38,292 bases of DNA, taken from Vulcanimicrobiota bacterium. GTDB taxonomy: Bacteria; Vulcanimicrobiota; Vulcanimicrobiia; Eremiobacterales; Eremiobacteraceae. The stretch lies in assembly GCA_019235715.1 (NCBI GenBank), contig JAFAKE010000035.1, positions 1-38,292 on the forward strand, given 5' to 3'. A program made the position numbers and the translations under genes. The notes beneath the pieces were generated by a model. That model was not told the DNA's origin. It searched no databases and worked only from the letters and a program-made list of their open reading frames with translations. This document shows positions 8,533 through 28,223 of the stretch, piece by piece (the first letter of the stretch is position 1; every line of letters begins with the position of its first letter).

Positions 8533-9588
8533 CTACTTGGTGCACGTCAGATCGATGCGGAAGTCCGCCGGCTTTTTGTAGTGCGGCAAACCGGGCAGCG
8601 CGTTCTGCGTCTTGTCGTCGAACGTCACGAGCAAACGAACCGGCGCGTCGGTTGCGTCAAACGGGCTCCACACGAACAGCTGGGAGAATGTGTAGTCGCT
8701 GCCCGGCGGCCAGTCATACCCGGGTTTGTTGGTCAGGCGCAGTCCGCCCACCGCGTTTGCCGACGAGGCATTGTTGCCGCTTTGCGTGACCAAAAACTCG
8801 TCCGTGACGTGAGTTTGTACGAACTTCGTCCCTTGATCGTTTAGTCCATCGGTTAAGATACCCCGGTTTGTCGCATTGACCCACGTCTGCGTGACGAGCC
8901 ATCCAAACTGGTCTTTGGGCGCTGCACCGACCGGATTCGGCCCGATTGCGGTGACTCGCATCTTCCAAATCCCGTTCGACATCCATTGGTTCAGGCAACC
9001 GTCGGTCGCCGCGACTTGATTGGATCCCCCCTGTGCCTGCGCGGCGGCACCGGTCGCAACGCACCCGAGGTTGAAGTGGAAATTGTATTTGGGGGTACTG
9101 AAGTGCGGCTTGTTCAGCTGTGCGAGAACCGTGCCATTGAACGTGATAAGAAGACCCTTCGGCTTGTTCGACGGGTCGAGAGTGTTGCTATAGAAGATCT
9201 GCTTGTACGTGTATTGCCCCGCCGGAGCGAAGCTGTTGTTCCCGACGCTGCCCATCGACAGGGCTCCGATACTGCTCTCTTTTGCGGTGATCGCGCCACT
9301 GCCAAGCTCGAGCGTCTGATCTTGGATCTGAGAATCGCTCGGCGACAGTTGTCCATTCGTTCCATTGCGCCAGACCTCGGTGACCTGCCAGCCGGTTTGC
9401 TGGCTCCCGTTCATGTAAGGCTCGACCGCAGTCACGTCCACGCGCCACAGCCCGTTGAACAACCACTGGTTCATACAGCCTTCTTGAGTGAGATTATCGG
9501 CGCGGCTCGTCGAGCCGCCAAGCGCCGCGAGCGACACCATGACGGCCGCGAATAGGCAAACAACGGACCAGACGAACAATTTGCGCAT
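8533..9588 (-). CDS. Secreted protein with two internal repeats (tandem paralogue, upstream copy)
   Basis: This is the 351-residue sister of the downstream gene, with the same signal peptide pattern, the same two GCMNQW/GCLNQW-opening domains and the same TDFRIDLTCTK-like end. Most differences are conservative changes and a few indels (for example ILTDGLNDQG against LIPGPGSDQG), so both copies appear to be under selection for protein function. The ATG at 9588 is preferred over the one at 9594: AGGAG at 9596-9600 is 7 bases from 9588 but only 1 base from 9594, and 9588 matches the start of the sister gene. Function is unknown; the repeated, cysteine-bracketed domains and the signal peptide suggest a periplasmic or cell-surface binding protein. 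Confidence 0.88.
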   Translation of the reverse strand: MRKLFVWSVVCLFAAVMVSLAALGGSTSRADNLTQEGCMNQWLFNGLWRVDVTAVEPYMNGSQQTGWQVTEVWRNGTNGQLSPSDSQIQDQTLELGSGAITAKESSIGALSMGSVGNNSFAPAGQYTYKQIFYSNTLDPSNKPKGLLITFNGTVLAQLNKPHFSTPKYNFHFNLGCVATGAAAQAQGGSNQVAATDGCLNQWMSNGIWKMRVTAIGPNPVGAAPKDQFGWLVTQTWVNATNRGILTDGLNDQGTKFVQTHVTDEFLVTQSGNNASSANAVGGLRLTNKPGYDWPPGSDYTFSQLFVWSPFDATDAPVRLLVTFDDKTQNALPGLPHYKKPADFRIDLTCTK

Positions 9589-9595
9589 GATCATG

Positions 9596-9844: not shown

Positions 9845-10850
9845 AGTTCGGATCCGCGTGCAGCTTGGCGACCGGCACGCGCGCGAGTTCCCCGCGGTAA
9901 TATGCGGCCGCTGCGATCATCGCCGCGTTATCCGTGCAGTAGGCGAGCGGCGGGATGAGCACATCGAGGCCTCGCGCACTGCCGAGCTCGCGCATCCGCG
10001 TGCGCAACGCTGAATTGGCGGAGACACCACCCGCAAGTGCGACGGTGCCGACGCCGAACTCTTCGGCTGCACGCAGCGTCTTCGCGCACAGCACGTCGAC
10101 GACAGCCGCTTGAAAACTGGCGGCGACATCTGCGGCGCGCTCGGTCGCATCTGCTGTGTGCGCGTCGAGATGATAGCGCACAGCGGTCTTGAGGCCTGAA
10201 AAGCTGAAGTCATGCGAGCCGTCATCCAGCAGACTGCGCGGAAAATCGAATGCAGAAGAATCGCCGCGCTGCGCGAGCGCGTCAAGCGCCGGACCGCCCG
10301 GAAACCCAAGCCCTAGAAGGCGTGCGACTTTGTCATACGCCTCGCCCGCAGCATCGTCGCGCGTGCGCCCGATGATGCGGTGCTGCGCAGCCGATTCGAC
10401 ATAGATCAGATCGGTGTGGCCGCCGGAGACGATCAAGCAGATGAACGGGTCGCGCGGCGGCCGTTGACCCGGTGCGTCCGGGTTCTCGAGATAGTTCGCA
10501 AAGAGATGGCCGTGAAGATGGTTGACCGCGTAGGCCGGCAGATCGCAGGCAAATGCGATCGCTTGCGCCGCAGCGACTCCTACGACAAGGCTGCCGGCAA
10601 GGCCGGGGCCGGCCGTAACGGCCACGCCGTCCAAGTCGTCATAAGAACGGCCGGCGCGCGATAGAGCCTGCTCGATGACCGCGCCGACCGCCTCGGCATG
10701 CCGCCGGCTCGCGATTTCGGGCACGACGCCGCCGTACTCTCGATGGAATTCGTCCTGTGAAGCCAGCACGTTGGCGAGGACCTTGCGACCGTCTTGGACA
10801 ACGGCCGCGGCGGTGTCGTCACACGATGTCTCGATGCCGAGCAGCAGCAT
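9834..10850 (-). CDS. tsaD: tRNA N6-adenosine threonylcarbamoyltransferase
   Basis: TsaD transfers the threonylcarbamoyl group to A37 of tRNAs that read ANN codons, working with TsaB and TsaE, which are not in this window. The 338-residue product starts MLLLGIETSCDDT, the family hallmark. It has the metal-binding HxxxH in NHLHGHLFANYLE (H111 and H115), then ICLIVSGGHTDLIYV, DDAAGEAYDKVARLLGLGFPGGP, FSFSGLKTAVRYH and LAGGVSANSALR. Length is typical. It is divergent from the DUF11 gene at 10890, with only 39 bases between the two start codons, so any promoter for either gene must overlap coding sequence. Confidence 0.97.
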   Translation of the reverse strand: MLLLGIETSCDDTAAAVVQDGRKVLANVLASQDEFHREYGGVVPEIASRRHAEAVGAVIEQALSRAGRSYDDLDGVAVTAGPGLAGSLVVGVAAAQAIAFACDLPAYAVNHLHGHLFANYLENPDAPGQRPPRDPFICLIVSGGHTDLIYVESAAQHRIIGRTRDDAAGEAYDKVARLLGLGFPGGPALDALAQRGDSSAFDFPRSLLDDGSHDFSFSGLKTAVRYHLDAHTADATERAADVAASFQAAVVDVLCAKTLRAAEEFGVGTVALAGGVSANSALRTRMRELGSARGLDVLIPPLAYCTDNAAMIAAAAYYRGELARVPVAKLHADPNFAW

Positions 10851-10889
10851 GAACTGCTTCTTCGCTGCTCGGGGGCCGATACATTGAAT

Positions 10890-13800
10890 ATGCCGCGTAT
10901 CGGCACCGCGTCAGTTCTATTGGGGCTGGCTGCGGCCATGGCCGCAGTGCTTATCATCGTCACAGTCGCGCGCTCGGCTGGAAGCGTCGGCGTCAACAAG
11001 GCCTTCAGCCCCTCGAACGTCGCGTTCGCAACCGATTCAACGCTCACCATCACGCTGCTCAACTCGGACCCGACCACGTCGGTCAACGTCACGACGATCA
11101 CCGACAATCTGCCGGCCGGGCTTACGATCGACAGCAGCGTCACGCCGGCCACGACCTGCGCCGGCGGCGCGGTGAGCACGACGGCGGGATCGGTGACTCT
11201 TACGGGCGGCGTCATTCCCCAAGCGCCGGATCAATTCAATCCCGGGACTTGCACGATCACCGTCGCGGTCTTCGGCTCGGCGGCGCAGAATTATCAAAAT
11301 ACGATACCAGCCGGTGCGCTGCAGACGAGCGCGGGTACGAACGGCACGCCGGCGAGTGCTACGCTGCAAGTGACCAACCCCGGCAACGTCGGCGTCGCTA
11401 TCGCCGTATCGCCGACGGTCGTGCCCGAAACAGCGTCCCCGGTCTTCACCGTCACGCTCACCAATCCGAATTCGCTCGCGTTGACCAACGTGACGATTCC
11501 CGGCACGCTGACAAGCCCGTCGGGGGGCGCGACGTTGCACATCGTCAGCGTCGTCAGCTCGTGCGGCGGCAGCGCCACGTTCAACAACGCCGTTTCACCG
11601 CCGACATTCAGCGTCACGGGAGCGACGATTCCCGCGAATGGATCATGCACCGTGACGGTCACGGTCAGCGTCAACGGCCAATTCTCGAACAACGTGCGCA
11701 CGCAGCAGCTCGCGATCGCCGCGCAAGCGGTGACCAGCGCGCAAGGCGTGACGAACAACACCGGCGCGGCGGCGACCGTCACCTACGATCCGATCACGCC
11801 GACGATCGTCAAGAGTTTCTCACCGAATCCGACGGTACCGGGCGCGACCATCACGCTGACGCTCGCCACGACCAATCGCGATACGGTCGCGCTGACGAAT
11901 TTCGGTTTCACCGACGTACTGCCCGGCGGTCTGACGTTAGGTGCGCCGCCCAACCTCGCCAACTCGTGCGCTGGACCAGCCGGTACTATCTCCGGCACGA
12001 CGACGGTCGTCGTCAGCGGCCTCACGCTGCCCGCGGCTCCTTCGCTTGGAAGCTCGACTGCGTGCACGATCACGTTCAGCGTGCTCGTGCCCGCATCGCC
12101 GCCATCGCAGACGCCGACGAATACCATCAACGGCAGCAGCGTGACCAACGACCAAGGGCTCAAGTCGAACAACAATACATCGGTGGTGCTCACGGTCGGC
12201 CCCACGCCGGCGCCGACGCCGGGATTCAGCAAGGCGTTTAGCCCAGCGACCGTCGCGCGCGCCAACAATTCGACGCTGAGCATCAACATCATCAACCGTG
12301 CCGGCCTGCCCGCGATGAGCAACGTGTCGTTCACCGACACGCTGCCCGCCGGCTTGATCATCGCCGCCGCGCCGACCGCGAACGCGAACTGCGGGGCGCC
12401 GACGCTGACCGGTGCCATCGGCGGAACGGTCATCACCATGACGGGCGGCACTATCGCCGCCGGCGCGCGCACGTGCACCGTCAGTGTGTTGGTCACGCCG
12501 ACGGTCGGGCCGCCGTTGCCGGTGACGCTGACCAACAGCATACCCGCGGGCGGCATCACCGCGACCCAAGGCGGTAATCCCGTCAGCAACCCAGAGGCCG
12601 TCAACGCGAACTTGACCGTCGGTCACGGACTGACCGTGACCCATTACTTCTCGCCGAGCGGCGGCACGACGGTCGGCGTCGCGCCCATCAAGGGCATTAT
12701 CACGGTGACCGATCGCATCACCTCGACGGCCGGCAACGACGACGCCAATCTCAGCGCCGTATTCAGCCTCAACACGGCCGGCACCAACGTGACGCTCGCG
12801 GCCTCTCCGAACTTCAATTATAGTTGTACACTGGGCTCCGTGCTGGCGTTTACGCCCGGCGCGGGAGGTTTGACATATACAGCGACCTCGGCGGACTACA
12901 AATCGAAAGATGTCTGCACGATCACCTACAACGTGACGTCGACCGTCGCCGGGACGTACACCGCCGGTCACACGGTGATCTCAAGCACTCAGGACAATTC
13001 GCAGACCATTAGCGGCATCAATAACGTCGTCTTCGTCGCGCCGTCGCAGATCAACGTGAACAAGACCTTCACGCCGAACACGATTCCGGCCGCCGGCGTC
13101 TCGCATCTGCAGATCACGCTCTCCAACAACGCCAACGCGGTCAACGGCATCGTGTTCAACGAGACGGGCGTGGCGGTGACCGATAACCTGCCCGCCGGCA
13201 TGACGATCAACAGCCCGCCGAATGCGAGCACGACCTGTCTGAACGGCACGCTGGTCGCGCCGGCCGGCGGCTCGACGATCCAATTGACCGGTGCGACGCT
13301 GCCCTCGCGCACGACCGGCGGCGCGCTGCAGCCGTGCACGATCACGGTCGACGTGACCGCGTCGGTGCCGGGGAATCTGACGAACACCATCCCGGCCGAC
13401 TCCATCACGTCCGACTCGGGCGCGACCAACCCATTCGGCACAAGCGTGACGCTGACGTCGTCGGCGAACATCGGCCTGGTGAAGACCTTCCTTGCCACGA
13501 ATCTCATGCCGGGCGGCGTGACGTGGGTGTCGCTGGTCTTCACCAACGGTTCCAACATCAGCGAGACCGTCAATAGCCTCACCGATAACTTGCCATCGGG
13601 CATCGTCGTAAAGGACACGACGACGCAGCCGCCGCCGCAGCCGGGCGCACCGCCGAACTGCAACGCGACCGTGAGCGGTGTGGCCGGCGGCAGTTCGTTC
13701 ACGGTGACGAACTTCACGATCGCGCCGGCGGCCAAGTGCGTCACCTACGTGGCCGTGACGACGCCGACACCGACCCAGTTCGGAACGTTCACGAACACGA

Positions 13801-14201
13801 TTCCGGCCGGTGCCATTGTGACGTCGAGCGGCCTCACGAACCTACAATCGACGTTCGCTACGATCACAGTCGCGACAGTATCGCTCTCATTATCGAAGGT
13901 CGTGCGCAATGTGACGCAAGGCGGCTCGAACGGGACGTCAGGCACCGCTCTGCCGGGCGACACCCTGCTGTACACGATCACCTACACCAACACGAGCCCG
14001 TTCAACGAGCTCACGGTCGCGATCAAAGATACAGTGCCCACGAATACGACGTTTGTCAGCGCGACGTGCGGCTCACTGGGAACCGGGTTGACTGCGTGCA
14101 CGCCATCCGGTCCGACAGCCGGCGTCGTGACGTGGACGATGACCGGCACGCTTTCGCCCGGCGGCACCGGAACTGTCTTCTTGACCGTCACCGTGCAATA
14201 G
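10890..14201 (+). CDS. Large secreted DUF11-type repeat protein (eight repeats)
   Basis: The 1103-residue protein starts MPRIGTASVLLGLAAAMAAV, a signal peptide or signal anchor. The remainder is about eight repeats of 110-140 residues. Each opens with a motif like VNKAFSPSNVAFATDSTLTI or IVKSFSPNPTVPGATITLTL, continues with a TDxLPAGL turn and ends in CTITV...NTIPAGAI...T. The last repeat (PGDTLLYTITYTNTSPFNEL) fits the DUF11 consensus best. Single cysteines recur at the same place in most repeats. These are immunoglobulin-like beta domains of extended surface proteins. There is no sortase, PEP-CTERM or lipoprotein anchor; the protein ends right after the last repeat. The ATG at 10890 is chosen because the signal sequence begins there. 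It is likely related in role to the surface operon at 16148-25857, from which thrS separates it. Confidence 0.9.
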   Translation: MPRIGTASVLLGLAAAMAAVLIIVTVARSAGSVGVNKAFSPSNVAFATDSTLTITLLNSDPTTSVNVTTITDNLPAGLTIDSSVTPATTCAGGAVSTTAGSVTLTGGVIPQAPDQFNPGTCTITVAVFGSAAQNYQNTIPAGALQTSAGTNGTPASATLQVTNPGNVGVAIAVSPTVVPETASPVFTVTLTNPNSLALTNVTIPGTLTSPSGGATLHIVSVVSSCGGSATFNNAVSPPTFSVTGATIPANGSCTVTVTVSVNGQFSNNVRTQQLAIAAQAVTSAQGVTNNTGAAATVTYDPITPTIVKSFSPNPTVPGATITLTLATTNRDTVALTNFGFTDVLPGGLTLGAPPNLANSCAGPAGTISGTTTVVVSGLTLPAAPSLGSSTACTITFSVLVPASPPSQTPTNTINGSSVTNDQGLKSNNNTSVVLTVGPTPAPTPGFSKAFSPATVARANNSTLSINIINRAGLPAMSNVSFTDTLPAGLIIAAAPTANANCGAPTLTGAIGGTVITMTGGTIAAGARTCTVSVLVTPTVGPPLPVTLTNSIPAGGITATQGGNPVSNPEAVNANLTVGHGLTVTHYFSPSGGTTVGVAPIKGIITVTDRITSTAGNDDANLSAVFSLNTAGTNVTLAASPNFNYSCTLGSVLAFTPGAGGLTYTATSADYKSKDVCTITYNVTSTVAGTYTAGHTVISSTQDNSQTISGINNVVFVAPSQINVNKTFTPNTIPAAGVSHLQITLSNNANAVNGIVFNETGVAVTDNLPAGMTINSPPNASTTCLNGTLVAPAGGSTIQLTGATLPSRTTGGALQPCTITVDVTASVPGNLTNTIPADSITSDSGATNPFGTSVTLTSSANIGLVKTFLATNLMPGGVTWVSLVFTNGSNISETVNSLTDNLPSGIVVKDTTTQPPPQPGAPPNCNATVSGVAGGSSFTVTNFTIAPAAKCVTYVAVTTPTPTQFGTFTNTIPAGAIVTSSGLTNLQSTFATITVATVSLSLSKVVRNVTQGGSNGTSGTALPGDTLLYTITYTNTSPFNELTVAIKDTVPTNTTFVSATCGSLGTGLTACTPSGPTAGVVTWTMTGTLSPGGTGTVFLTVTVQ

Positions 14202-16633: not shown

Positions 16634-16715
16634 TCATAGCTACCCGCGCGTCTTCACGACACGCTAGGGCGAGCGCGTCCACGTGACGCGACGTTATAGG
16701 AGCGAAAAGAGACCC

Positions 16716-19049
16716 ATGAATCTCTGGTTCATTTCACTGACGCGCGCAGCAGCCGGATTGGCAGCAGCCGCGTTCGTCTGTTGCGCGCTGGCCGGCAACG
16801 CCCAGCAAGCAGCAGCAGCCACGGCAGCCGGCACGACGATCTCGAACACCGCGTCGGCCACCTATACGGACACGAACGGTGTCCAGTATTCGACGAATTC
16901 CAACACCGTCGTCGTCACGGTGCAAAGCGCACCCAGCTTGACCGTCACGACGAATAACGGTGCGGCGGCCGGCACGAACTCGGGCGTCCCCAATACGTGC
17001 TTCGCCGACATCTACACGCTGACGAATACCGGTAACGGTCCGGGTTACTTCCAAGTGACCAACGCGGCACCGGCATTCGGCGGCAATGATTCGGGCGCGG
17101 CGACGCTGACCAACTTCACCGTATCGGTCAACGGCGGTCCGCTGCAGACGTTCGCGACGCTTGCCCTGATGAACACGTATCTGAACTCGGCATCGGGCAA
17201 GGTCACCAACGGCCAAGTCGTGACGCTCACGATCAACTACTGCCAGTCGAACCCGGCGAACGTGCCTGGCTTGATCACGACGACGGTCGTCGCCACGATC
17301 ACGCAGAAAGCGGCGGATATCCCGGGCACCGTCGACACGACGTCTGCGAGCCAGCAGAACACGTATAACGACAGCATCATCGCCGAGGCGCGTCTCGATC
17401 TGCAGAAGTCCGCGGTCGTCAGCGGCACGGCTGGTGCGCCGATCGTGACCTTCACGATCTTGGGCAATAACGGCGGCGGCGCGAACGCCACCGTGCTCAA
17501 GACCCTCAGCAGCGGCGGCTTCGGGTTCCCGAGCTCGGGCATCCTGATCGCGGACAAGATCCCGCAATTCGCCGCAGTCACGCTCACGTTGAACGGAACA
17601 CCGACGTGCACGGGCACGGCGGCAAACGGCTTCCCGGCTGGCGCGAGCGCGACGGTCTACTATACGACCGACGCGACCGGTGCCACTGGCTGGACATCGA
17701 CGAAGCCGGCGTCGCCGCTCTGGGTCGGCTGCTTCGTGGTGCCTTCGAGCGGCACGATCGCGCTGAACTCACATCCCGGGTCTTCGGCGGGCAACGTGCC
17801 GGCTGCGGCCCTCACGCTGACGTTCGCGGTCAACGGACCGACGGGATCGGGTTCGGCCAATCCGTGCGCCGGCTTGGTCGGCCCCGTGACCAACATCGCC
17901 AACAGCGTGGTCGGCGGCAACGCGACGCCACCGGCGGTGACGACGCCGCCGCAGATCATCGGCCCGACGATCAACACCCTTGTCAGCGATGACGGCAGCG
18001 CGGCTGCGGCCAACGCGATCAAGGGCGCGTTGCAAAACGCCACGAGCCTGCAAGGCCCGAGCGGCGCGTCGCAGGTCACGTGCTCGTCCATGCCGATCAG
18101 CCGCACCGTGTTGAACGGTCCACGCACCGCTCCGGGCGCGGTCGGCAGCTACGATGGCGTGCAGGCGGTCAACAACAACAACGACTTCACGGACGTCGGC
18201 TTCGTCCAAGCCGGCTTCACGATCGTCAACAGCAGCACGACGGTGGGCTCGCCGACCGGCAACACCTTCACGGCGGCGGTCACGGGCATCAACGTCTCGA
18301 GCGATATCCAGAACAGCGGCAACATCGACGACACGTATAACATCGTGGCGACGGCGCCCGCGGGCTTCACCGTGCAGTTGTTCCAGGACAACGGCGCGGG
18401 CGCGCCGAGCGCCACGCCGCTGGGCGGCGCGACATCGGGCGCGACTTCGACGGCATCCAACGTCGCCGTCGCCTCGGGCGCAACGCTGCACTACTGGGCG
18501 GTGTATGCCTCGCCGAGCGGTGTGACGACACTCGTGCGCTACGATGGCAACACCATCGCGACCAGCACGAACGACGGCACGGTCCACAACCAGACGCATC
18601 ACGAGCTCTACGCGGGCTTCGTGGCGCTGACCAAGTCGGTCGCCATCGTCACCAACTGCTCGGGCGTCGTGCCGGCTCTCGGCGTCTGCCCCGGCGGTAC
18701 GATGACCTACACGATCGACTATCGCAGCATCGTGACGTTCCCAGGAACCGGCAACACCGAGCCGGCGGCGGCGATCCTGATCACCAAGCCGGGATTGCTC
18801 GTCGTCGCCGATGACGGCACGCTGGGCACGAACAACTGGGCGACGTTCACGAACGGCATCAACGCGAACGCAACCGATACGACTGCAGGCACGATCTTCA
18901 CGTACACTCCGGGCAATCCGCCTGGATCGACGAAGTTCAGCGCGCAGGTCGGTGGCGCCGCGTTCTCGCTGCAAGCTGCGGGATCGGGCGGTTGTACCAA
19001 CGCGGCCAGCTGTTCCGGCCAGATAGCCTTTGCCGTTACCGTGAAGTAG
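16716..19049 (+). CDS. Large secreted beta-repeat surface protein
   Basis: The 777-residue protein starts MNLWFISLTRAAAGLAAAAF, a signal peptide likely cut after AAAA near residue 35. A short motif TTISNTASATYTDTNGVQYS directly after the signal peptide is repeated in the gene at 19077 (TLISNTASATYDDAAGTSYA), so both share an N-terminal module. The long middle is Thr/Ser/Asn/Gly-rich with beta-sandwich patterns and scattered cysteines. The C-terminal part (from about 645) has a DUF11-like segment CPGGTMTYTIDYRSIV and ends NAASCSGQIAFAVTVK. No anchor is visible. AGGAG lies 13 bases ahead of the ATG at 16716 and AAAGAG is nearer; the GTG at 16683 is an alternative. It is likely an extracellular structural protein. 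Confidence 0.85.
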   Translation: MNLWFISLTRAAAGLAAAAFVCCALAGNAQQAAAATAAGTTISNTASATYTDTNGVQYSTNSNTVVVTVQSAPSLTVTTNNGAAAGTNSGVPNTCFADIYTLTNTGNGPGYFQVTNAAPAFGGNDSGAATLTNFTVSVNGGPLQTFATLALMNTYLNSASGKVTNGQVVTLTINYCQSNPANVPGLITTTVVATITQKAADIPGTVDTTSASQQNTYNDSIIAEARLDLQKSAVVSGTAGAPIVTFTILGNNGGGANATVLKTLSSGGFGFPSSGILIADKIPQFAAVTLTLNGTPTCTGTAANGFPAGASATVYYTTDATGATGWTSTKPASPLWVGCFVVPSSGTIALNSHPGSSAGNVPAAALTLTFAVNGPTGSGSANPCAGLVGPVTNIANSVVGGNATPPAVTTPPQIIGPTINTLVSDDGSAAAANAIKGALQNATSLQGPSGASQVTCSSMPISRTVLNGPRTAPGAVGSYDGVQAVNNNNDFTDVGFVQAGFTIVNSSTTVGSPTGNTFTAAVTGINVSSDIQNSGNIDDTYNIVATAPAGFTVQLFQDNGAGAPSATPLGGATSGATSTASNVAVASGATLHYWAVYASPSGVTTLVRYDGNTIATSTNDGTVHNQTHHELYAGFVALTKSVAIVTNCSGVVPALGVCPGGTMTYTIDYRSIVTFPGTGNTEPAAAILITKPGLLVVADDGTLGTNNWATFTNGINANATDTTAGTIFTYTPGNPPGSTKFSAQVGGAAFSLQAAGSGGCTNAASCSGQIAFAVTVK

Positions 19050-19076
19050 CGGAGAAGGCGGCAGGAGCTTAGGCCG

Positions 19077-21221
19077 GTGCGCCGATCTCTCGCTCTGGTG
19101 TTGGCGGCGGCCGGCGCCGGTTGGGTCGTCATGGCGACCCAGCCGGCGCTTGCCGCTACGCCTGCCGGAACGCTGATCTCGAATACGGCGTCGGCGACCT
19201 ACGACGACGCCGCTGGGACGTCGTACGCGACCGACTCGAACACCGTCGTCGCACAAGTCCAAGCGGTGTCTTCGCTGATCGTCACGCCCAAAGAGGCGAT
19301 CGTCAACCCTGCGCTCGACGCGTACGCGGTCGGCACGCCGGTGACGCGCCGCTTCACCATCACCAACACCAGCAACCTCACCGACGCCTATACGATCCAA
19401 GCAGCGACGACGACAAAGGGCGTCATCACCGCGATCAATTTCGTCGTGCCGCCGGCGGGGCCGCCGATTCCGGTCACTGTCGGCAGCACCGTTTCTCCAA
19501 ACGTCGTGCCGGGCGGCACGATGTTCGTCGATGTCACCGTCAACACCGCGGGCGTGCCGGTCGGCACGTCTTGGTCGATCAACATCACCGCGCAGACGAC
19601 CGTCACCGGAACCGCCAACGGGTTGCAATCGGACAGCGGGCAACGCTGGGCGATCGCAGTCCCCGGCCCCAATCTCAGCGGCGTCAAGAAACTCGTCGGC
19701 GGGCAACCTTCCGTCCAATCCGCACCGAGCAGCACGGTCACGTTCACCGTTTCATTCACGAACTCGGGCGGCTTGCCGGCCAATAACGTCGTCATGACCG
19801 ACGTCGTGCCGATCGGCCTGCATCCGATCCTCGCCTCGGTGCTGATCAACAACGTTCCCGCCGGCGGGCAGGCGACGCTCGTCGGACAGACATTGACGGT
19901 CACGATTCCGACAGTGGCGCCGACGCAGACGATCGTCATTCAATTCGAGGCGACCGTCGATCCTAACGCGCAGCTCGGCACGACGATGGTCAACGTCGCG
20001 CAAGTGAGCGCGACTGGCGTCGGACCGTTCAGCTCCTCGCCTGCGAGCGTCTTCGTCGGCACGGGCAACATCGTGTACGACGGCTTGGCGGGTCCCGGTT
20101 TTCCGATCGGCAGCGCTGCGCTGACGCTCACCAAGCCGCCGGCGATCACGCCGTTCGCCCTCACCGGCACGGGCGTCGCGCCCAACAATGCGAACGCGAA
20201 TCCGTTCACGACCGATTCGACCGGCACGTACTCGTACGGCTTCGGCACGAATCAGTTCGGCGGTCCGATCGGGGATGCGCATTACATCCTGACGGTCGTC
20301 GCATCCGGCTATTTGAACCGGCAAGTCGACGTCGTGCTGCACGCGGATCCGAGCCTCACGCTGTACACGGCGACGATCAAGGCGCTTGACGGACAGCAGC
20401 TCGCCACGCCCGGCGGCTTCACGCTGACGCCCGGTCCCGTGACGCTCAACAACGTGTTCAATATCCTCGGCAACATCCCGATGTTCACGGCGCATCCGAT
20501 CCAGATCACAAAGGCCGTCGATCAGCAAGCCGTGTCGACGGCCAGCCGCGTCATCTTCACGATCAACTTCTCCAATGCGTCGCTCGCGACGTTGACCAAT
20601 ACCAAACTGATCGACACGCTGCCGCCGGGCATCGCATATGGCCCGGGCACCGCGTTGGTCGACGGCGTCCATCAAGAACCGGTCGTCAACGGCCGCACGC
20701 TGACCTGGTCCTTCGGCACGCTGGCGCCGGGCGCATCGCACACGATCGTGTACGCCGGGCTCGTGCTGCCGCAAGCAGTCGTCAACACGACGCTGACCAA
20801 CGTCGCGGCGGTGACCGCGACGGCAGCGGGGGCCGACTTGAGCGCATCGGCGGAAGCGTCGGTCTACGTGCTCAGCGGCGGCGCGTTCTCGTACACGATT
20901 CCGATAACCGGCCGCGTCTACATCGATGTCGCCGGCCTCGGCAAATTCGTGCCCGGCGACAAAGGCGTGTCCGGAGTCCGCCTGTATCTCGAAGACGGCG
21001 AATACGTCGTCACCGACGCCGACGGCCGCTACTCATTCCCGTCGGCCCGCCCCGGTATGCACGTCGTGCATCTCGACGTGACGACGCTGCCGTCGGGCGT
21101 GCATCCCTTCCCGGACGGCCTCAACATCGAAAGCACGCACAGCGTCACGCGGCTCGTGCACGGCATTCTCGATACCGGGCTGCTGCAAGACATCAACTTC
21201 GGGCTGGAGGCGGCGAAATGA
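19077..21221 (+). CDS. Secreted DUF11-repeat protein with C-terminal SdrD/Cna-B-like domain
   Basis: The 714-residue protein begins at GTG 19077 (AGGAG 11 bases upstream) with a signal peptide ending QPALAATPAG. The shared TLISNTASATY module follows, then DUF11-type domains at about 200-300 (STVTFTVSFTNSGGLPANNV, TDVVPIGL) and at about 475-590 (SRVIFTINFSNASLATLTNT, DTLPPGIAYG). From about 608 there is a SdrD/Cna-B-like domain: ITGRVYIDVAGLGKF, PGDKGVSGVRLYLEDG, TDADGRYSFPSARPG. Such domains usually form stiff rods in cell-surface proteins. The last codons overlap the ATG of the beta-barrel gene (ATGA), so this protein and the barrel are made together. The C-terminal domain ends GLLQDINFGLEAAK and may contact the barrel; that is inferred. 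Confidence 0.88.
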   Translation: MRRSLALVLAAAGAGWVVMATQPALAATPAGTLISNTASATYDDAAGTSYATDSNTVVAQVQAVSSLIVTPKEAIVNPALDAYAVGTPVTRRFTITNTSNLTDAYTIQAATTTKGVITAINFVVPPAGPPIPVTVGSTVSPNVVPGGTMFVDVTVNTAGVPVGTSWSINITAQTTVTGTANGLQSDSGQRWAIAVPGPNLSGVKKLVGGQPSVQSAPSSTVTFTVSFTNSGGLPANNVVMTDVVPIGLHPILASVLINNVPAGGQATLVGQTLTVTIPTVAPTQTIVIQFEATVDPNAQLGTTMVNVAQVSATGVGPFSSSPASVFVGTGNIVYDGLAGPGFPIGSAALTLTKPPAITPFALTGTGVAPNNANANPFTTDSTGTYSYGFGTNQFGGPIGDAHYILTVVASGYLNRQVDVVLHADPSLTLYTATIKALDGQQLATPGGFTLTPGPVTLNNVFNILGNIPMFTAHPIQITKAVDQQAVSTASRVIFTINFSNASLATLTNTKLIDTLPPGIAYGPGTALVDGVHQEPVVNGRTLTWSFGTLAPGASHTIVYAGLVLPQAVVNTTLTNVAAVTATAAGADLSASAEASVYVLSGGAFSYTIPITGRVYIDVAGLGKFVPGDKGVSGVRLYLEDGEYVVTDADGRYSFPSARPGMHVVHLDVTTLPSGVHPFPDGLNIESTHSVTRLVHGILDTGLLQDINFGLEAAK

Positions 21222-24200
21222 AGCGCCTTGCCGCCGTCCTGTTGATGTTCGCCGCGCTTGCGCTGTCGCCGGCGCTCGTGCCGTCGCCGGCGTCGGCGGA
21301 CGTGCCGCAGGTCGCCGACTTGAGCAACCTCACCTACACCGCTACCGGTGATCTCAGCGCGACACTCGTCGCGCCGGCCGACAAAAGCGCGTCGCCGACG
21401 ATCGCATCGAAGTTCTTGGTCTCGACCGGCCCAGGCGGCGGCGTCGAACTGCGCGTGAACGGCAAGGTCATCTCGACCAAGCAGATCGGGACGCGGACCG
21501 TCAACAAGAAGACCGGCGAGACGCGTTACGAGTACTTCGGCGTCATCCTCGCCGAAGGCCCCAACGCCGTCGACATCACGCCGCTCGGCGCTATGGGCGC
21601 GCGCGGTCCGATGACGCATTACACGGTGTACGGTCCGGGCAAGCCCGTCCACTTCTCGTTCTTGCTCGACCATACGCTGCGCGCCGATGGCGGCAGCACC
21701 GTCAGCACGCTGAACATCACCGCGCTCGACCGCTGGTACAACGCGGCGATGCCGGGCGCGATCATCAAATTGAACATCACGTCCGGGTACGCGCAGTTCC
21801 TCGTCGCGACGCCGACCGGCGAAGGCAAACCGCCGCTGTATCACCCGACGTCAGCGGTCGAGGTTCCCGTCGCGCCGGGCGGCGTCGAACAGATCCATCT
21901 GATCGGCGGCTTGCTGCCCGGTGAAGCGATGCTGCAGCTCGTCGCCGCCGACGTCGTGACGAGCGAGCGCTTCTACGTCGAGCCCAATTTGCGCAAGCCG
22001 CTCGTCGCGGGCCTGGTCACCGCCGGCGTGGGTGCGGTGCCCGGTTTTGCCGGCATGCCGGCCGCGGTTCCCGACGGCCAGCAGACGCGCGAAGGGCGCA
22101 TCGCGATCTTCGCGACGGGCACGATCTTCGACAATATCCTTGCGACTGCCGCGTACGATACCGCAAACGTCTTGCAGCAGAACTTGCAAGGCCCATACGT
22201 CACCGACCCGTACGATCGCCCGTTCCAAACGTACGGCGACACCAGCTATCAGCATGACGATGCGCTCTCGCGCGATCATCTGTACGCGCGTTTCGACCTC
22301 AACCAGAGCAGCCTCATGTGGGGCGAGTTCCGGCCGGACACGGGCTCGGACGATCCCGATGCGGCATATCACCTGCTGATCGACGGCGCCAAACTCGAGC
22401 TGGGTACGACCCGCTCGCGCGTGGTCGCGTTCACCGCCGATAACGACTTCGCATACGCGCGCCAGCAGTTCAACCCGAGCGGCCTGTCGCTGAGCGGGCA
22501 GATCTTGCGTCCGAATATCGTCGTCGGATCCGACGTCGTGATGCTGGTCGTCCTCGACAAGCGAACGGGCGCAGTGTTGAGCCAGACCTTCATGGTCAAT
22601 AACGTCGACTATACGCTCGACTACAGCACCGGCTTGCTGCGCTTCATCAATATTCCGCTGCCGTACGACGACCATTTCAATCCGCAGGTCGTCCAAGTGC
22701 AATACGAATACGGCGGCGTCGGGGTGAGCTCCGAGACGACGGGCGGGCGCGCGAACATCTTACTCGACAAGAAGGGCACCGTACAGCTCAACGTCGGGTA
22801 TGTCAACGACTTCACTGGGATCGCCAACTTCTCGCTCTTCGAGCAGAGCATCACCGGCACGACCCATGGCGGGTCGTGGAGCGTCGGCCACACGGTTTCC
22901 AATGGACCGCCGCTCGGCGGCCTGCCGGCAGCGAGCCAAACGGGCTCCGAGATCCACGCGACGTTCTCGCAGGTCTCAGGTCCCAACCGTTTATCGTTCG
23001 AATTCGACACCGCCAGCGCGCAGTTCGATAACCCGTTCGGCGGTTTTGCCACACCGGGTCTGACGAGCTACAATTTGGATGCGCGCCACTTGTTCAATCC
23101 GGACAGCGACCTCGCGCTCAATTTCAACCTGCAGCACAACATCAGCCCGACCGGGTCGCAAGAGCAGTCGCAAGCCTCCGCCCTCTACCACCATTCATGG
23201 AAGGACCGCTTGATCGTCAAGGTCGGCGTTCAGACCAACATCACTTCGAACGTCGCATCCGCGATCACGGGAGCTACGGTGACCGGTTCCGATCTGCAAT
23301 CGATCGTCGGCGTCGCGTATAAGTTCACGCCGCGCCTCGCGCTCGGCGTTGAGGACATCGCCAATATCGGCGGCGGCACCACCGCGCCGAGCGAACCGGC
23401 GCAGGCGCTCGCGCAGCTGACATACACGATCCCGAACAACACGAAGTTCTACGTGCGCGACCGCTGGAGCTCGCAGCCGACCGAGAGCTTCGCGACGTCG
23501 TCGGCGCCGTTCACGACGGTTTCGCAAGCGACGCAGTCGTTCGCGGTCGGTTTCTCGCGCGACATGTCGGCCGCGACCGCAGTCGACGCTGAGTGGGGGG
23601 TCGATCATACCAACGACGGTGCGGACGTGTACTCAGCTTACGGCGTCCACGAGAAGTTCACGCTGGGCAAGAACGTCCACGGCGACGGCTTCGTGCAGGA
23701 CGGAAACGCCATCGGCGCAGCCATGGCCGGGTTCTTCGTATATGGACTCAACGCGTCGTATACGAATGCGCATAATTTCACCGCCGCGGCGTCGTGGCAA
23801 AACCGGACCGGCTCGCAACCGGGCAGCAGCCTGACCGCCGGTTTCACCGGCCCGCTCGGCTCGAGCTTCGCGATCCAAGGCACGGTGCAAGATTCGTGGA
23901 CGCCGCTTGCGTTCGACGATCAAGACCGCGTCGGTCTGGCCTGGCGCCCTGCGCGGAACGATCGCGGCGCGACGCTCGTCGAGTGGGACCACCGGATCGG
24001 CAGCATCTCGACGCTGAGCCAGCAGACCGACGTCATCATGGTGCAGCAGGTCTATCGGCCGTCGCAGACGCTTGAGTTGGCCGGGCGCTGGGCGTACAAG
24101 ATGGATGGCGGCGCGTACTATCTGCCGCACACGTCGCTCGTCGGACTGCGTGCCGATCAGCGCTTCGGTCCGCGCTACGACTTGGGCGTCGAGACGCAGG

Positions 24201-24406
24201 TCGTCGAGCCCGCCGGCATCCCTGCCGCCAAATCCACCGACTTCGCCGTGGAGAACGGCTATCGCATCGGCGGCGCCGCGCGCTTCGCGGTCGGTTACAA
24301 TTTCGCAGGCTCAGCCGATCCGACGCTGACCGGCGCGCCGGTCCGCCGCGGCGCGTACGTCACGTTGACATCCGTCGTCGACCACATCTTCGGCTGGGGA
24401 CGTTGA
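21218..24406 (+). CDS. Large outer-membrane beta-barrel protein with N-terminal beta-sandwich domains
   Basis: The 1062-residue protein has a signal peptide (MKRLAAVLLMFAALALSPALVPSPASA). Beta-sandwich domains follow to about 290, including KFLVSTGPGGGVELRVNGKV and a Big/invasin-like part at about 145-260 (LNITALDRWYNAAMPGAIIK). From about 340 come amphipathic strands typical of an outer-membrane barrel: DHLYARFDLNQSSLMWGEFR, VDYTLDYSTGLLRFINIPLP, VQVQYEYGG, then many alternating strands to the end at VVDHIFGWGR. Barrel-linked surface proteins with this VDYxTGxLxF signature are seen beside DUF11 proteins in other diderms, as far as I recall, but no role has been assigned that I can name. It may export or hold the secreted repeat proteins of this operon. 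Its ATG overlaps the previous stop and its stop overlaps the next TTG start. Confidence 0.85.
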   Translation: MKRLAAVLLMFAALALSPALVPSPASADVPQVADLSNLTYTATGDLSATLVAPADKSASPTIASKFLVSTGPGGGVELRVNGKVISTKQIGTRTVNKKTGETRYEYFGVILAEGPNAVDITPLGAMGARGPMTHYTVYGPGKPVHFSFLLDHTLRADGGSTVSTLNITALDRWYNAAMPGAIIKLNITSGYAQFLVATPTGEGKPPLYHPTSAVEVPVAPGGVEQIHLIGGLLPGEAMLQLVAADVVTSERFYVEPNLRKPLVAGLVTAGVGAVPGFAGMPAAVPDGQQTREGRIAIFATGTIFDNILATAAYDTANVLQQNLQGPYVTDPYDRPFQTYGDTSYQHDDALSRDHLYARFDLNQSSLMWGEFRPDTGSDDPDAAYHLLIDGAKLELGTTRSRVVAFTADNDFAYARQQFNPSGLSLSGQILRPNIVVGSDVVMLVVLDKRTGAVLSQTFMVNNVDYTLDYSTGLLRFINIPLPYDDHFNPQVVQVQYEYGGVGVSSETTGGRANILLDKKGTVQLNVGYVNDFTGIANFSLFEQSITGTTHGGSWSVGHTVSNGPPLGGLPAASQTGSEIHATFSQVSGPNRLSFEFDTASAQFDNPFGGFATPGLTSYNLDARHLFNPDSDLALNFNLQHNISPTGSQEQSQASALYHHSWKDRLIVKVGVQTNITSNVASAITGATVTGSDLQSIVGVAYKFTPRLALGVEDIANIGGGTTAPSEPAQALAQLTYTIPNNTKFYVRDRWSSQPTESFATSSAPFTTVSQATQSFAVGFSRDMSAATAVDAEWGVDHTNDGADVYSAYGVHEKFTLGKNVHGDGFVQDGNAIGAAMAGFFVYGLNASYTNAHNFTAAASWQNRTGSQPGSSLTAGFTGPLGSSFAIQGTVQDSWTPLAFDDQDRVGLAWRPARNDRGATLVEWDHRIGSISTLSQQTDVIMVQQVYRPSQTLELAGRWAYKMDGGAYYLPHTSLVGLRADQRFGPRYDLGVETQVVEPAGIPAAKSTDFAVENGYRIGGAARFAVGYNFAGSADPTLTGAPVRRGAYVTLTSVVDHIFGWGR

Positions 24407-25857
24407 AGCTCCTAAAACGCGCGTTCGGCGTGGGAGTGCTGCTGCTTGCGGCGGCTGTCGCCGCATCCGCGGCCGTGAACGGCCCCGGGCCAGTCGCGTA
24501 CGTCTACGAGACGACGTTTAACGGCGTTGCCACCGGCCCGACGGGGCCGGATCCAGCCAATTTCAACACGCAGGTCTGGGGATCTGCCACACCCCCGGCA
24601 GGCTCGCTGCTCGGCAGTTCGTCCACGTTCAACGGCACGCTGATCAATATGTTGACGGCCGGGAATCAGTTCGCCGGCACGCAACTCTGGACGTGCAACG
24701 CGACCCTGTTCACGTACTGCGTGGGCACGCAAGCGGTCGGTTCGACCGTCGGCAACGCGTCGCAGGTCTTCGAATTCATCATCGTGCAGTCGTGGCCGTT
24801 CTACGTCGATTCTGCCGGCGCGTCAAATGTTACGAATGGCAACTTCACGGGCGAGACGACGAGCGACGACGGTTCGTGGATGGTGCTCGGACCCGCCGCG
24901 TTCACCTACGCGCAGCCTGCGAATTTTCAAGGCGCGACCGGCTTGACCGCGGGCACTGCCATGGTCGACAATTCGGCGAATCAGGCGCCGACGAGCAAGA
25001 CGGGCACGTTCAAAGTCGCAGTCCAAGCCGCATGCGCCAACAACCTCTATTGGCTCACGATGCAGTACGACGAAGCAGAAGGCGGCGACGCGCAACTCGA
25101 GTACTCATGGCAGCCGCCGGGCGCCGGCGCGCTCGGCACGGTGACGCAAGCCGCCGTCTACGGCCAAGTGCGCTACCTCGGCACCGGAACGTCTGGCGAA
25201 TCGGTGCAAGTCACCGACCCTAATGGTGGGACTCACACGGTCACTACCGACTCCCACGGCTGCTATGGCTACAATTACGCGCCGTACAGCGGCACGCAGC
25301 CGGTCACCATCACCGCGACTGAGACGGTTCACGGCAGCGGCAGTATTGCGTCGACCGTCAGCGTGCCGATCGGCGGCGCGATCCGCCAAGACTTCGATTT
25401 TCCACCTCCCAAGGTCGAGCTGACCAAGCGCATCACGCAAGTCAAGACGTACGGGCCGACGCCCGGACCCGCGACGACGCCGCGCGTGATCACACCAACG
25501 CCGGACCCGGGCAGTCTCGCGGGCGTCAACGGCACCGTCAACTACCAGCCTGGTTTCTATCCGAAAGACGTCGTCACGTACACCGTGTACTTCCGCAACA
25601 TCGGCGGCTATCCGGCACAAGGCCCGGGCGGCGTCGGGCCGACGTTCAGCGACATCCTTGCAAATCCACTCGTCTATGTCGCGAGTTCGCAAACATTCAC
25701 GTGCTGCGCGAGTCCCGTCGTCACCATCGGCGCAGCGTTCACACAAGCCGGCCAGACGTTGAGCTGGGCGATGGCGGCGCCGCTGCCGACGCCGAATCCT
25801 GCGGGCACGGCGGGCCCCATCCAGGGCAACACGAGCTACCAGGTCACGGTGCCTTAG
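24403..25857 (+). CDS. Secreted protein with carboxypeptidase-regulatory-like and DUF11-like domains, last gene of the surface operon
   Basis: The 484-residue protein starts at TTG 24403, overlapping the barrel stop by four bases, with GGGGAC just upstream. The signal peptide is MKLLKRAFGVGVLLLAAAVAASAA. The first 240 residues form a beta-rich domain with cysteines, possibly lectin-like (YVYETTFNGVATGPTGPDP, NLYWLTMQYDEAEGG). A carboxypeptidase-regulatory-like domain lies at about 245-330 (VYGQVRYLGTGTSGESVQVT, TTDSHGCYGYNYAPYSG). A DUF11-like domain follows at about 345-484 (VELTKRITQVKTYGPTPGP, YPKDVVTYTVYFRNIGGYP). The regular domain order in a surface operon suggests a tip or accessory component, by inference. 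Its end overlaps the convergent propeller gene by 14 bases, leaving no room for a terminator between them. Confidence 0.82.
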   Translation: MKLLKRAFGVGVLLLAAAVAASAAVNGPGPVAYVYETTFNGVATGPTGPDPANFNTQVWGSATPPAGSLLGSSSTFNGTLINMLTAGNQFAGTQLWTCNATLFTYCVGTQAVGSTVGNASQVFEFIIVQSWPFYVDSAGASNVTNGNFTGETTSDDGSWMVLGPAAFTYAQPANFQGATGLTAGTAMVDNSANQAPTSKTGTFKVAVQAACANNLYWLTMQYDEAEGGDAQLEYSWQPPGAGALGTVTQAAVYGQVRYLGTGTSGESVQVTDPNGGTHTVTTDSHGCYGYNYAPYSGTQPVTITATETVHGSGSIASTVSVPIGGAIRQDFDFPPPKVELTKRITQVKTYGPTPGPATTPRVITPTPDPGSLAGVNGTVNYQPGFYPKDVVTYTVYFRNIGGYPAQGPGGVGPTFSDILANPLVYVASSQTFTCCASPVVTIGAAFTQAGQTLSWAMAAPLPTPNPAGTAGPIQGNTSYQVTVP

Positions 25858-26887
25858 CTCCAAGCGTCGCACGCGAGAAGACGCAGATCCACGAAAAATC
25901 CGAATTTGGCAGTTGTGGCCGATTGACGACGTAGTAATCGCCGTTGTTGCCGAACGCCGTCCCCTCGACGTATGCGCCGAGCGCCGCATCGGGTCCGCCG
26001 ATCAATTGTACCGGCGCCGCGTTGCCGTTCGCGTTTGGCGCGTACACGCTGATCGTGCTATTGCCGAAATTCGTGACGTAGATGTATCCGGCCGGATCCA
26101 CCGACACGCTCTGCGGCACGTTGAGCAGCGTCTTGTCGCCGGTGATGACGCGCGCCGGCGCCGCGTTCCCTGATGCGCCTGGTGCGAAGATGATGATGCT
26201 GTCGATTCCCATGTTGACGCGGCCGCTATTGACGACGAAGATGTCGCCGTGCAGTCCGACCGTCAGGGCAAGCGGGGTATCCAAGGTCGTGCGCGAGCCG
26301 GCGATCCTGCGCACCGGCGCCGGATCGGCCGATGCGCCCATCTTGTACACCGTCACCGAGTTCTCAGCGTCGACCATCGCGCCGTAGTTCGAGATATAGA
26401 TGAAGCCGCGTCCATCGAGCGCGACGCCACGCGGCCGGATGACTGCGTCTTTGATGAAGCGCACGGGCGCCACGTCGCCGCTCGCGCCGGGCGCGAATAT
26501 CAGCACGCGGTCTTGGCCGACCACGCTTTCGCCTGACCCGCTGACGCCGGTGTTCGCGACGTACAGCGCGCCCGAGGCATCGACCGCGACCCCGTTCGGA
26601 CGGGTAAGTCCCGTGAGTGGACCAGCGATCGTGCGCAGCGGTTTCGCGTCGCCGTTCGCGTTCGGCGCATACACGGTCAACGAGTCCTGGCCGCCGGTCG
26701 CCAAGTCACCGTCGTTCGCGACGAAGAGCGTGCCGCTCTGGTCGACGGCAAGTCCGCTGGGCCAAAGCAGGCCGGTGGACGACCCCTTGATCATGCGTGC
26801 GGGCACGACGACTTGATCGGCATCCGGCGGCGCAGCGGCGCACAGCGACACGGCGACTGACACAAGAAGAAGGAAGCGCGCCTTCAT
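25844..26887 (-). CDS. Secreted NHL/beta-propeller-like repeat protein
   Basis: The 347-residue protein has a signal peptide (MKARFLLLVSVAVSLCAAAPPDA) and five to six repeats of about 50 residues. Each repeat runs like YAPNANGDAKPLRTIAG, then LTRPNGVAVDASGALYVANTG, which is the NHL-type propeller blade pattern: an xPxAxGxxxPxxxI strand, then a GVAVD...G..YVAN strand. A six-bladed propeller is expected. Function is not known; propellers of this kind bind ligands or have lactonase-like activity. The ATG at 26887 is where the signal peptide begins. It follows the peroxiredoxin gene by 16 bases and is probably in one transcript with ku and the peroxiredoxin. Confidence 0.88.
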   Translation of the reverse strand: MKARFLLLVSVAVSLCAAAPPDADQVVVPARMIKGSSTGLLWPSGLAVDQSGTLFVANDGDLATGGQDSLTVYAPNANGDAKPLRTIAGPLTGLTRPNGVAVDASGALYVANTGVSGSGESVVGQDRVLIFAPGASGDVAPVRFIKDAVIRPRGVALDGRGFIYISNYGAMVDAENSVTVYKMGASADPAPVRRIAGSRTTLDTPLALTVGLHGDIFVVNSGRVNMGIDSIIIFAPGASGNAAPARVITGDKTLLNVPQSVSVDPAGYIYVTNFGNSTISVYAPNANGNAAPVQLIGGPDAALGAYVEGTAFGNNGDYYVVNRPQLPNSDFSWICVFSRATLGAKAP

Positions 26888-26903: not shown

Positions 26904-27344
26904 CTACGCCGGAGACAGCCCCGCGAGGATGTCGTCGGTCGACGGCATTCCGCGGCGGTAATAGGTGATTCGCCCATCGCGTTCGATGCCTGCCACGGTG
27001 CGGTTGACGTACGTAAACGGGCCGAAACGAGTGACGGCATCGTATGCGCGCGCGACCTTCAGGCCGCGGTCGCTCAAAAGGCGCGCCGTGAATGCGTACC
27101 GGCGCGCGAAGGCGCGATGGGATCGGACACTCGCTCCGTTGATGCCGAAGACCCTGATGCCGGCCGCGCGATAGCGGTCGTCCGCGCCGCGCACGGCGGC
27201 GAGCTGCAGATATCAGCCGAGCGTATGATCGAGCACGTAGAAGATCAGAACGACGCGCGAATGCGCAAGCGTGCCCGCAAGCGATACCGATTCGCCGTCT
27301 TGGTCCGGCAGCGTGAAGTCGGGCGCAGCCGTTCCTAACAACAC
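26904..27344 (-). CDS. Peroxiredoxin (BCP/AhpC type) with in-frame TGA at the peroxidatic cysteine; candidate selenoprotein
   Basis: Read through the TGA at 27213-27215, the frame gives one 146-residue peroxiredoxin. It starts (GTG 27344) MLLGTAAPDFTLPDQDG, then VVLIFYVLDHTLG, then TGA as codon 44, then YLQLAAVRGADDRYR, ending with FTYVNRTVAGIERDGRI. In the family the codon after D-x-T-x-G is the catalytic cysteine (D-x-T-P-G-C), so the TGA sits exactly at that position. The partner Thr (T41) and Arg (R115) are present. A hairpin with a G-U-containing loop begins 11 bases after the TGA, as bacterial SECIS elements do. Peroxiredoxins reduce hydroperoxides, and selenocysteine forms of this family are known. 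It lies 21 bases after ku and 16 before the propeller gene. A Cys-to-stop mutation or assembly error is the alternative. Confidence 0.82.
27185..27201 (-). promoter_or_regulatory. Candidate bacterial SECIS hairpin
   Basis: On the minus strand CGCCGC-CGTGC-GCGGCG forms a perfect 6-bp stem with a 5-base loop whose second base is G, followed by U. The loop begins 18 bases after the in-frame TGA (17 bases between), in the range described for bacterial SECIS elements, which need a G in the first two loop positions. GC-rich hairpins are common in this DNA, so the placement is the main support. Confidence 0.6.
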
Positions 27345-27365: not shown

Positions 27366-28223
27366 TTAGGCGCGCGCAGCAACGCGCTTCTTGGCCTTGC
27401 CGTTCGAGCCGCTCTTGCCGTTGGCGTGCGCCGGGCGCTTCCTCACGGCGCCACGCTTGAGGCTTTCCTGCAGCACGTCCATGAGGTTGACGACCTCGGT
27501 CGCCGGCTTCGGTTTGCCTGCCGCCATCGTCTTGACCGGCTTACCCTTCGCGCGTGCCTCGATCATCGTCATCATCGCATCGCGATAACGGTCGCGATAT
27601 TCGTCCGGATTGAACTTTGCTTCCATCGTATCGATGAGCATCTTCGCGGCCTTCATCTCCGCGGCCGAGACCTTCTCCTTGGCGGGCGGGAAGTCGTATT
27701 CGGAGACGTCGACGATCTCGTCGGGGTAGTGCATCAGTTCGAGCACCAGCGCATTGCCGTTGGGCTTCAATGCGCAGATGTATTCCTTCGTGCGGATGAC
27801 GACGCGCGCGATGCCGACCTTGCCGGATTCGGCAAGCGCATCGCGCAGCAAGGCGTAGGCGTGTCTGCCCTTTTTCTCGGGCTCGAGATAGTAGGGCTTG
27901 TCGAACAGAATGGGATTGATCTCGGAAAGCTTGACGAACTCGGTGATATCGATCGACTGCGTCGCTTCGATGCGTACTTTCTTGATGTCCTCATCGGAGA
28001 TGATGACGTACTCGCCATCGCCGACCTCATAGCCCTTCACGATGTCTTTCCAGTCGACTTTCTTGCCGTCAACGCTGCACACGCGCTGGAAATTGATGCG
28101 CCCTTTGTCGGTCTTGTGCAGCATGTTGAAATGGATCTCGTTCTCGCGCACGGCGGTGAACAGCCGGACCGGGATCGTCACCAATCCGAAGTTGATCGAG
28201 CCGTTCCAAATCGCGTGGGCCAT
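27366..28223 (-). CDS. ku: Ku protein, non-homologous end-joining
   Basis: The 285-residue protein starts MAHAIWNGSINFGLVTIPVR, the unmistakable bacterial Ku start, followed by HKTDKGRINFQRVC and KGYEVGDGEYVIISDEDIKK. The homodimer threads onto double-strand break ends and recruits LigD; no ligD is in this window. After the core (to about 245) there is a C-terminal basic tail rich in Lys, Arg and Ala (KRGAVRKRPAHANGKS... ending KKRVAARA), which in other Ku proteins aids DNA bridging. The ATG at 28223 has AGGGGA upstream. It is divergent from the small winged-helix gene, and the shared upstream region contains LexA-box-like sites. Confidence 0.97.
   Translation of the reverse strand: MAHAIWNGSINFGLVTIPVRLFTAVRENEIHFNMLHKTDKGRINFQRVCSVDGKKVDWKDIVKGYEVGDGEYVIISDEDIKKVRIEATQSIDITEFVKLSEINPILFDKPYYLEPEKKGRHAYALLRDALAESGKVGIARVVIRTKEYICALKPNGNALVLELMHYPDEIVDVSEYDFPPAKEKVSAAEMKAAKMLIDTMEAKFNPDEYRDRYRDAMMTMIEARAKGKPVKTMAAGKPKPATEVVNLMDVLQESLKRGAVRKRPAHANGKSGSNGKAKKRVAARA

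Follow-up and report, generated by a model that had tools for sequence, protein, structure and literature searches.

A predicted cysteine-free selenocysteine peroxiredoxin and related TGA-bearing peroxiredoxins in Vulcanimicrobiota

Introduction

A TGA codon at the active site of a peroxiredoxin gene may end the protein or may encode the residue on which catalysis would depend. The question is posed by a minus-strand gene, here called prxU, in a 38,292-nt stretch of Vulcanimicrobiota DNA (the window, by which we mean the whole stretch that was analysed). A preliminary description of the window had proposed that the gene encodes a full peroxiredoxin and that its single TGA is read as selenocysteine (Sec). 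The analysis presented here favours that reading, and places the probability that prxU encodes a selenoprotein peroxiredoxin, with Sec inserted at UGA-44, at roughly 0.93. The reading is backed by a complete Sec machinery in the genome, by the occurrence of the same TGA in four genomes, and by cysteine-containing homologues.

Results

The predicted selenoprotein gene prxU occupies positions 26904..27344 of the minus strand, an assignment based on the PF00578 domain, an AF2 model and orthologues. It starts at GTG 27344, with an alternative start at TTG 27341, and ends with TAG at 26906-26904; the product would be 146 residues long, with the putative Sec at position 44. The sole in-frame TGA of the frame 27344-26904 lies at 27215-27213. 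Read through this codon, the sequence matches PF00578 (AhpC-TSA) with 84.1 bits over residues 2-126, in keeping with the full peroxiredoxin frame and the one TGA (27213-27215) of the preliminary description. Translation without read-through leaves a 96-aa ORF that begins at GTG 27194 and scores 36.7 bits; its match to PF00578 begins at profile position 49, and the fragment therefore lacks the active site, as had been expected of the product of a standard gene caller.

The read-through product contains the motif D39-x-T41-x-G43-U44. In an alignment of 36 homologous sequences, every row that lacks TGA at position 44 has Cys there; T41 is invariant, and the partner arginine, R115, is Arg in 32 of the 32 rows that cover it. 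The alignment had been suggested earlier as a check on the TGA column, and it bears out the placement of the TGA (27213..27215, minus strand) at the peroxidatic position (Cp) as well as the presence of the partner Thr and Arg. An AhpC/TSA domain, Thr at Cp-3, TGA at Cp and the catalytic Arg, which together define Sec peroxiredoxins, are all found in prxU. The product is predicted to adopt a peroxiredoxin fold: the AF2 model has a pLDDT of 96.2, a Foldseek search with this model gives TMq values of up to 0.90, and the closest solved structures by both sequence and fold are BCP/PrxQ/AhpE enzymes.

Orthologues of prxU were sought among 149 genomes of the phylum. TGA occupies the same codon in G022, which belongs to the same genus as the window genome, G000 (72% protein identity), in G089 (55%) and in G106 (49%). 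The Cp codon is TGC in the orthologues of G095, G090 and G034, in a partial orthologue of G060, and in a homologue from Uhrbacteria (L050). Between G000 and G022, dN/dS is 0.27/1.47 before the TGA and 0.23/1.30 after it, or about 0.18 on both sides, and the two proteins terminate at nearly the same position. These ratios indicate purifying selection on both sides of the TGA and agree with the earlier statement that the frame is intact on both sides, as neither a frameshift nor a second stop interrupts it. The recurrence of the TGA in three other genomes, the low dN/dS on either side of it, and the similar arrangement of two more peroxiredoxin genes in G000 show that its position is more than a chance occurrence.

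The same observations bear on the possibility that the TGA is a true stop, in which case prxU would be a recent pseudogene or would yield a 43-aa peptide and an internally started 96-aa fragment. A single change separates TGA from TGC, and the 96-aa ORF is all that a standard caller reports. Yet the TGA persists in four genomes at 49-72% identity under the constraint described above, the fragment is devoid of the catalytic position, and the sister family uses TGA or TGC/TGT at Cp, never TAA or TAG. Termination at this codon is thus very unlikely.

The genome of origin (2.50 Mb, 96% complete) encodes the components required for Sec decoding. Contig C29 carries selA (524 bits), selB (312 bits) and tRNA-Sec(UCA) (75.4 bits; identified by ARAGORN as SeC with the anticodon tca), and selD (370 bits) is found on contig C101, so that the genome search for selA, selB, selC and selD proposed in the preliminary description recovered all four. 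An internal positive control for Sec decoding is also present in G000: a formate-dehydrogenase-alpha-like gene on contig C54 (L240:1501-3744, plus strand; G000:C54:1880 onward) carries both a TGA in the formate dehydrogenase Sec motif and a SECIS. The TGA lies within NQARI-U-HSSTV, the usual formate dehydrogenase Sec site. The SECIS-like hairpin of this gene, GGUGCCC[GGUCU]GGGCACC, has its loop 18 nt from the UGA and an energy of -14.8 kcal/mol, and the loop resembles that of E. coli fdhF. The encoded protein is a molybdopterin oxidoreductase that scores under the TIGR01591 cut-off.

Among the orthologue-bearing genomes, a tRNA-Sec match was obtained in 4/4 of those with TGA in prxU and also in the Cys-form genomes G090 and G095, while the search of the Cys-form genomes G034 and G060 gave no match. 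As the sequence reveals the codon and not the inserted residue, UGA might instead specify Cys or some other standard residue. This is countered by the presence of a dedicated tRNA-Sec(UCA) together with SelA, SelB and SelD, and by the bSECIS-like hairpins that follow the recoded UGAs. TGA moreover ends ordinary frames, including, as terminal stops in several genomes, those of the two other TGA-bearing peroxiredoxins, and UGA has therefore not been reassigned wholesale. We consider decoding by a standard residue highly improbable, and insertion of Sec remains the preferred reading.

The four Sec orthologues share sequence features that were not part of the preliminary description. They contain no Cys in the whole protein; Val occupies Cp-7 (Val37 in prxU) in all four, against Pro in the other 32 rows of the alignment; and the residues at Cp+5 are A, A, N and S. 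In the Uhrbacteria sequence and in the phylum's three full-length Cys orthologues, Pro stands at -7, and the single additional Cys lies precisely at +5. The absence of Cys, Val at Cp-7 and the loss of the +5 Cys accompany TGA in 4/4 orthologues and are seen in none of the Cys forms. A poorly resolved tree of the subfamily places the Cys form of G095 within the Sec forms. A sequencing or assembly error that turned TGC or TGT into TGA could be entertained for a window taken from a draft, multi-contig genome; independent genomes reproduce the TGA at the same codon, which practically excludes a base-calling error, and an error would not explain why the TGA form lacks the resolving Cys and has Val in place of Pro, when the Cys forms retain both residues. 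The probability of such an error is negligible.

Since the protein has no Cys, the residue at the UGA is the only possible redox residue in prxU. This suggests a 1-Sec peroxidase whose selenenic acid would be reduced by an external thiol. The cysteine-free, Val-for-Pro subfamily looks like a variant of Sec peroxiredoxin that is apparently new.

A putative bacterial SECIS hairpin, CGCCGC[CGUGC]GCGGCG, is located at 27185..27201 on the minus strand, with its loop 17 nt past the UGA, G at loop position 2 and an energy of -10.3 kcal/mol. The hairpin falls within all bSECIS rules of PMC13188914 (a loop of 3-9 nt, a stem of 4-16 bp, G in the first two loop positions, a spacing of 16-37 nt and an energy of at most -7.5 kcal/mol), yet 511 of 2000 synonymous recodings (26%) match its energy. 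The stem in G022 is the same, and G089 and G106 have a different one, CGCGGUC[CGUGAY]GACCGCG, 21 nt away. The 50- and 96-nt stretches past the prxU UGA, when folded whole, are no more stable than shuffles, and the RNAalifold signal over the four Sec orthologues is weak. A structure of the prescribed kind is present past the UGA, but it is not significant alone. Because a hairpin of this energy is not significant by itself in GC-rich sequence, the proposal that it acts as a SECIS leans on the sister families, in which the hairpins are much stronger.

Use of Sec appears to extend across the phylum, with tRNA-Sec detected in 102 of the 149 genomes and in 67 of the 85 good ones. G000 itself has three AhpC/TSA genes with TGA at Cp. 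Besides prxU, these are a PrxQ-type gene on contig C92, with the sequence FTGG-U-TNEASQFRD (L130:1719-2201; G000:C92:74218-74700, minus strand) and a strong SECIS-like hairpin, and a gene of the FFPQAFTSDU type on contig C15, with the sequence FFPQAFTSD-U-TIEAK (L145:1351-1911; G000:C15:54833-55393, plus strand), whose family (f1) has TGA nearly throughout. The peroxidatic position holds the only internal TGA of either gene.

As some TGAs are terminal stops, the PrxQ-type genes were counted according to the codon present at Cp. This codon is TGA in 31 and TGC/TGT in 35 of the 66 genomes, and TAA/TAG in none. The tRNA-Sec was matched in 26/31 TGA genomes against 25/35 Cys genomes (p = 0.18); the link is only a trend, since many Cys forms sit in Sec-decoding genomes, and the five TGA genomes that gave no match are drafts of 63-96% completeness. 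A hairpin common to many PrxQ-type TGA genes, GCGUCGC[AGUUYC]GCGAYGC, lies 16 nt past the UGA and shows compensatory changes in G027 and G077; a clade within the window's own family has AGUCAGC[GGUCU]GCUGACU instead. Hairpin energies average -7.7 kcal/mol in TGA genes and -3.3 kcal/mol in Cys genes, a difference whose p value of 7e-5 is nominal, the genes being related. No strong hairpin was found by the bSECIS rules in the PrxQ-type TGA genes of G087, G088 and G096-G098. The third family comprises 11 genes with TGA and 8 with TGC; within one of its genera, G018 and G019 keep both TGA and hairpin, and in G020 the codon is TGC and the hairpin is gone.

The PrxQ-type alignment also displays Trp two residues before the signature Pro in 31/31 TGA forms (W-x-YPKD or W-x-YSKD) and Tyr in 35/35 Cys forms, a split that may reflect either the history of clades or a substitution linked to Sec. 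Outside the phylum, a peroxiredoxin gene of Neomarinimicrobiota TS1B11 (L067:1250-1729, minus strand) likewise has TGA as its peroxidatic codon, together with a hairpin whose loop is CGUGAC; its contig carries two Cys peroxiredoxins close by.

In the window, prxU lies between two genes of the same strand. The gene ku, encoding a Ku70/Ku80 domain protein (27366..28223; PF02735, 176 bits), is 21 nt upstream, and the two are probably co-transcribed; a gene for an NHL-repeat protein with a signal-like N-terminus (25844..26887; PF01436, 61.7 bits) begins 16 nt past the prxU stop. The gene order in G022 is the same, with the prxU orthologue between ku and the NHL-repeat gene (the latter at L135 2200-3282). 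In G089 and G106 the orthologue is adjoined by a convergent gene named by eye from its sequence as thioredoxin reductase, trxB, and this neighbour would fit thioredoxin as a partner of the prxU product. Elsewhere, the window contains closely related tandem genes for secreted-looking proteins of 352 and 353 aa, in both of which an EGCMNQW-type domain is internally repeated (7460-8518 and 8533-9594, minus strand), and a row of long repetitive exported-looking proteins of the cell-surface repeat type (10794-14201 and 16683-25857, plus strand), among them one of 1062 aa (21218-24406).

Discussion

The arrangement of prxU suggests how its product might be made and might act. SelB with GTP and Sec-tRNA(Sec) would recognise the hairpin just 3' of UGA-44, leading to insertion of Sec in place of termination. 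Sec44 is expected at the N-terminus of a helix, together with the active-site residues Thr41 and Arg115, and its selenolate would reduce H2O2 or organic peroxides, becoming a selenenic acid. As prxU has no other Sec or Cys, reduction of the selenenic acid would need an external thiol, either thioredoxin or a small thiol, as in a 1-Sec peroxidase.

On a broader scale, we think it rather probable that Sec is used phylum-wide in several peroxiredoxin families, including a Cys-free subfamily that lacks the signature Pro, has selenium as its sole redox atom and depends on an external thiol for resolution, in a phylum that has so far not been regarded as selenoprotein-rich. A search for literature on selenocysteine or selenoproteins in Eremiobacterota, WPS-2 or Vulcanimicrobiota returned nothing relevant, nor was a description found of the Cys-free Val-for-Pro subfamily or of such a breadth of Sec peroxiredoxins in the phylum; such genomes may already be covered in the supplements of large surveys such as PMC12013277, with its count of 83,103 Sec-utilizing organisms. 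Standard annotation truncates these genes at the active site and thereby hides some of the antioxidant system of an entire phylum; in the 2.5 Mb of G000 this concerns three peroxiredoxins and one formate-dehydrogenase-like protein. Sec and Cys forms of the same enzyme occur as pairs many times in the phylum, with matching gain or loss of the SECIS hairpin and the resolving Cys, which makes it possible to test why Sec is retained in some cases and replaced in others. With a Cys-free Sec peroxiredoxin, the contribution of selenium alone could be measured cleanly.

The decoding apparatus of G000 corresponds to the bacterial Sec system (SelA, SelB, SelC, SelD and bSECIS), with four components present, hairpins at 16-37 nt and nothing unusual. 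BCP-type Sec peroxiredoxins with a TxxU motif form an established group (PMC13188914, PMC9312934, PMC1794560, PMC1088965), an example being the Eubacterium acidaminophilum protein (PF00578 / COG1225 Bcp; PMC13188914, PMC9312934, PMC1794560). With this type prxU shares the AhpC/TSA domain, TxxU at the peroxidatic position, Cys homologues and a bSECIS-like hairpin, and it differs by Val for Pro in PxxxTxxU and by having no cysteine at all; it also falls outside the NCBIfam PrxU equivalog NF040737 (23.3 bits, cut-off 270). The 2-Cys PrxQ/BCP enzymes (PRK09437, PrxQ of Xanthomonas) provide the best sequence profile, at 57.9 bits and below the equivalog cut-off of 140, and are among the closest folds; the Cys orthologues of prxU resemble them in having Cys at Cp and Cp+5, whereas prxU has the putative Sec at Cp and no resolving Cys. 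The 1-Cys AhpE of Mycobacterium tuberculosis (1xxu, 4x0x) is likewise among the closest folds (TMq 0.83-0.89); as is proposed for the prxU product, it has one redox residue only and depends on reduction from outside, but this residue is Cys in place of Sec, and the two proteins are about 27% identical.
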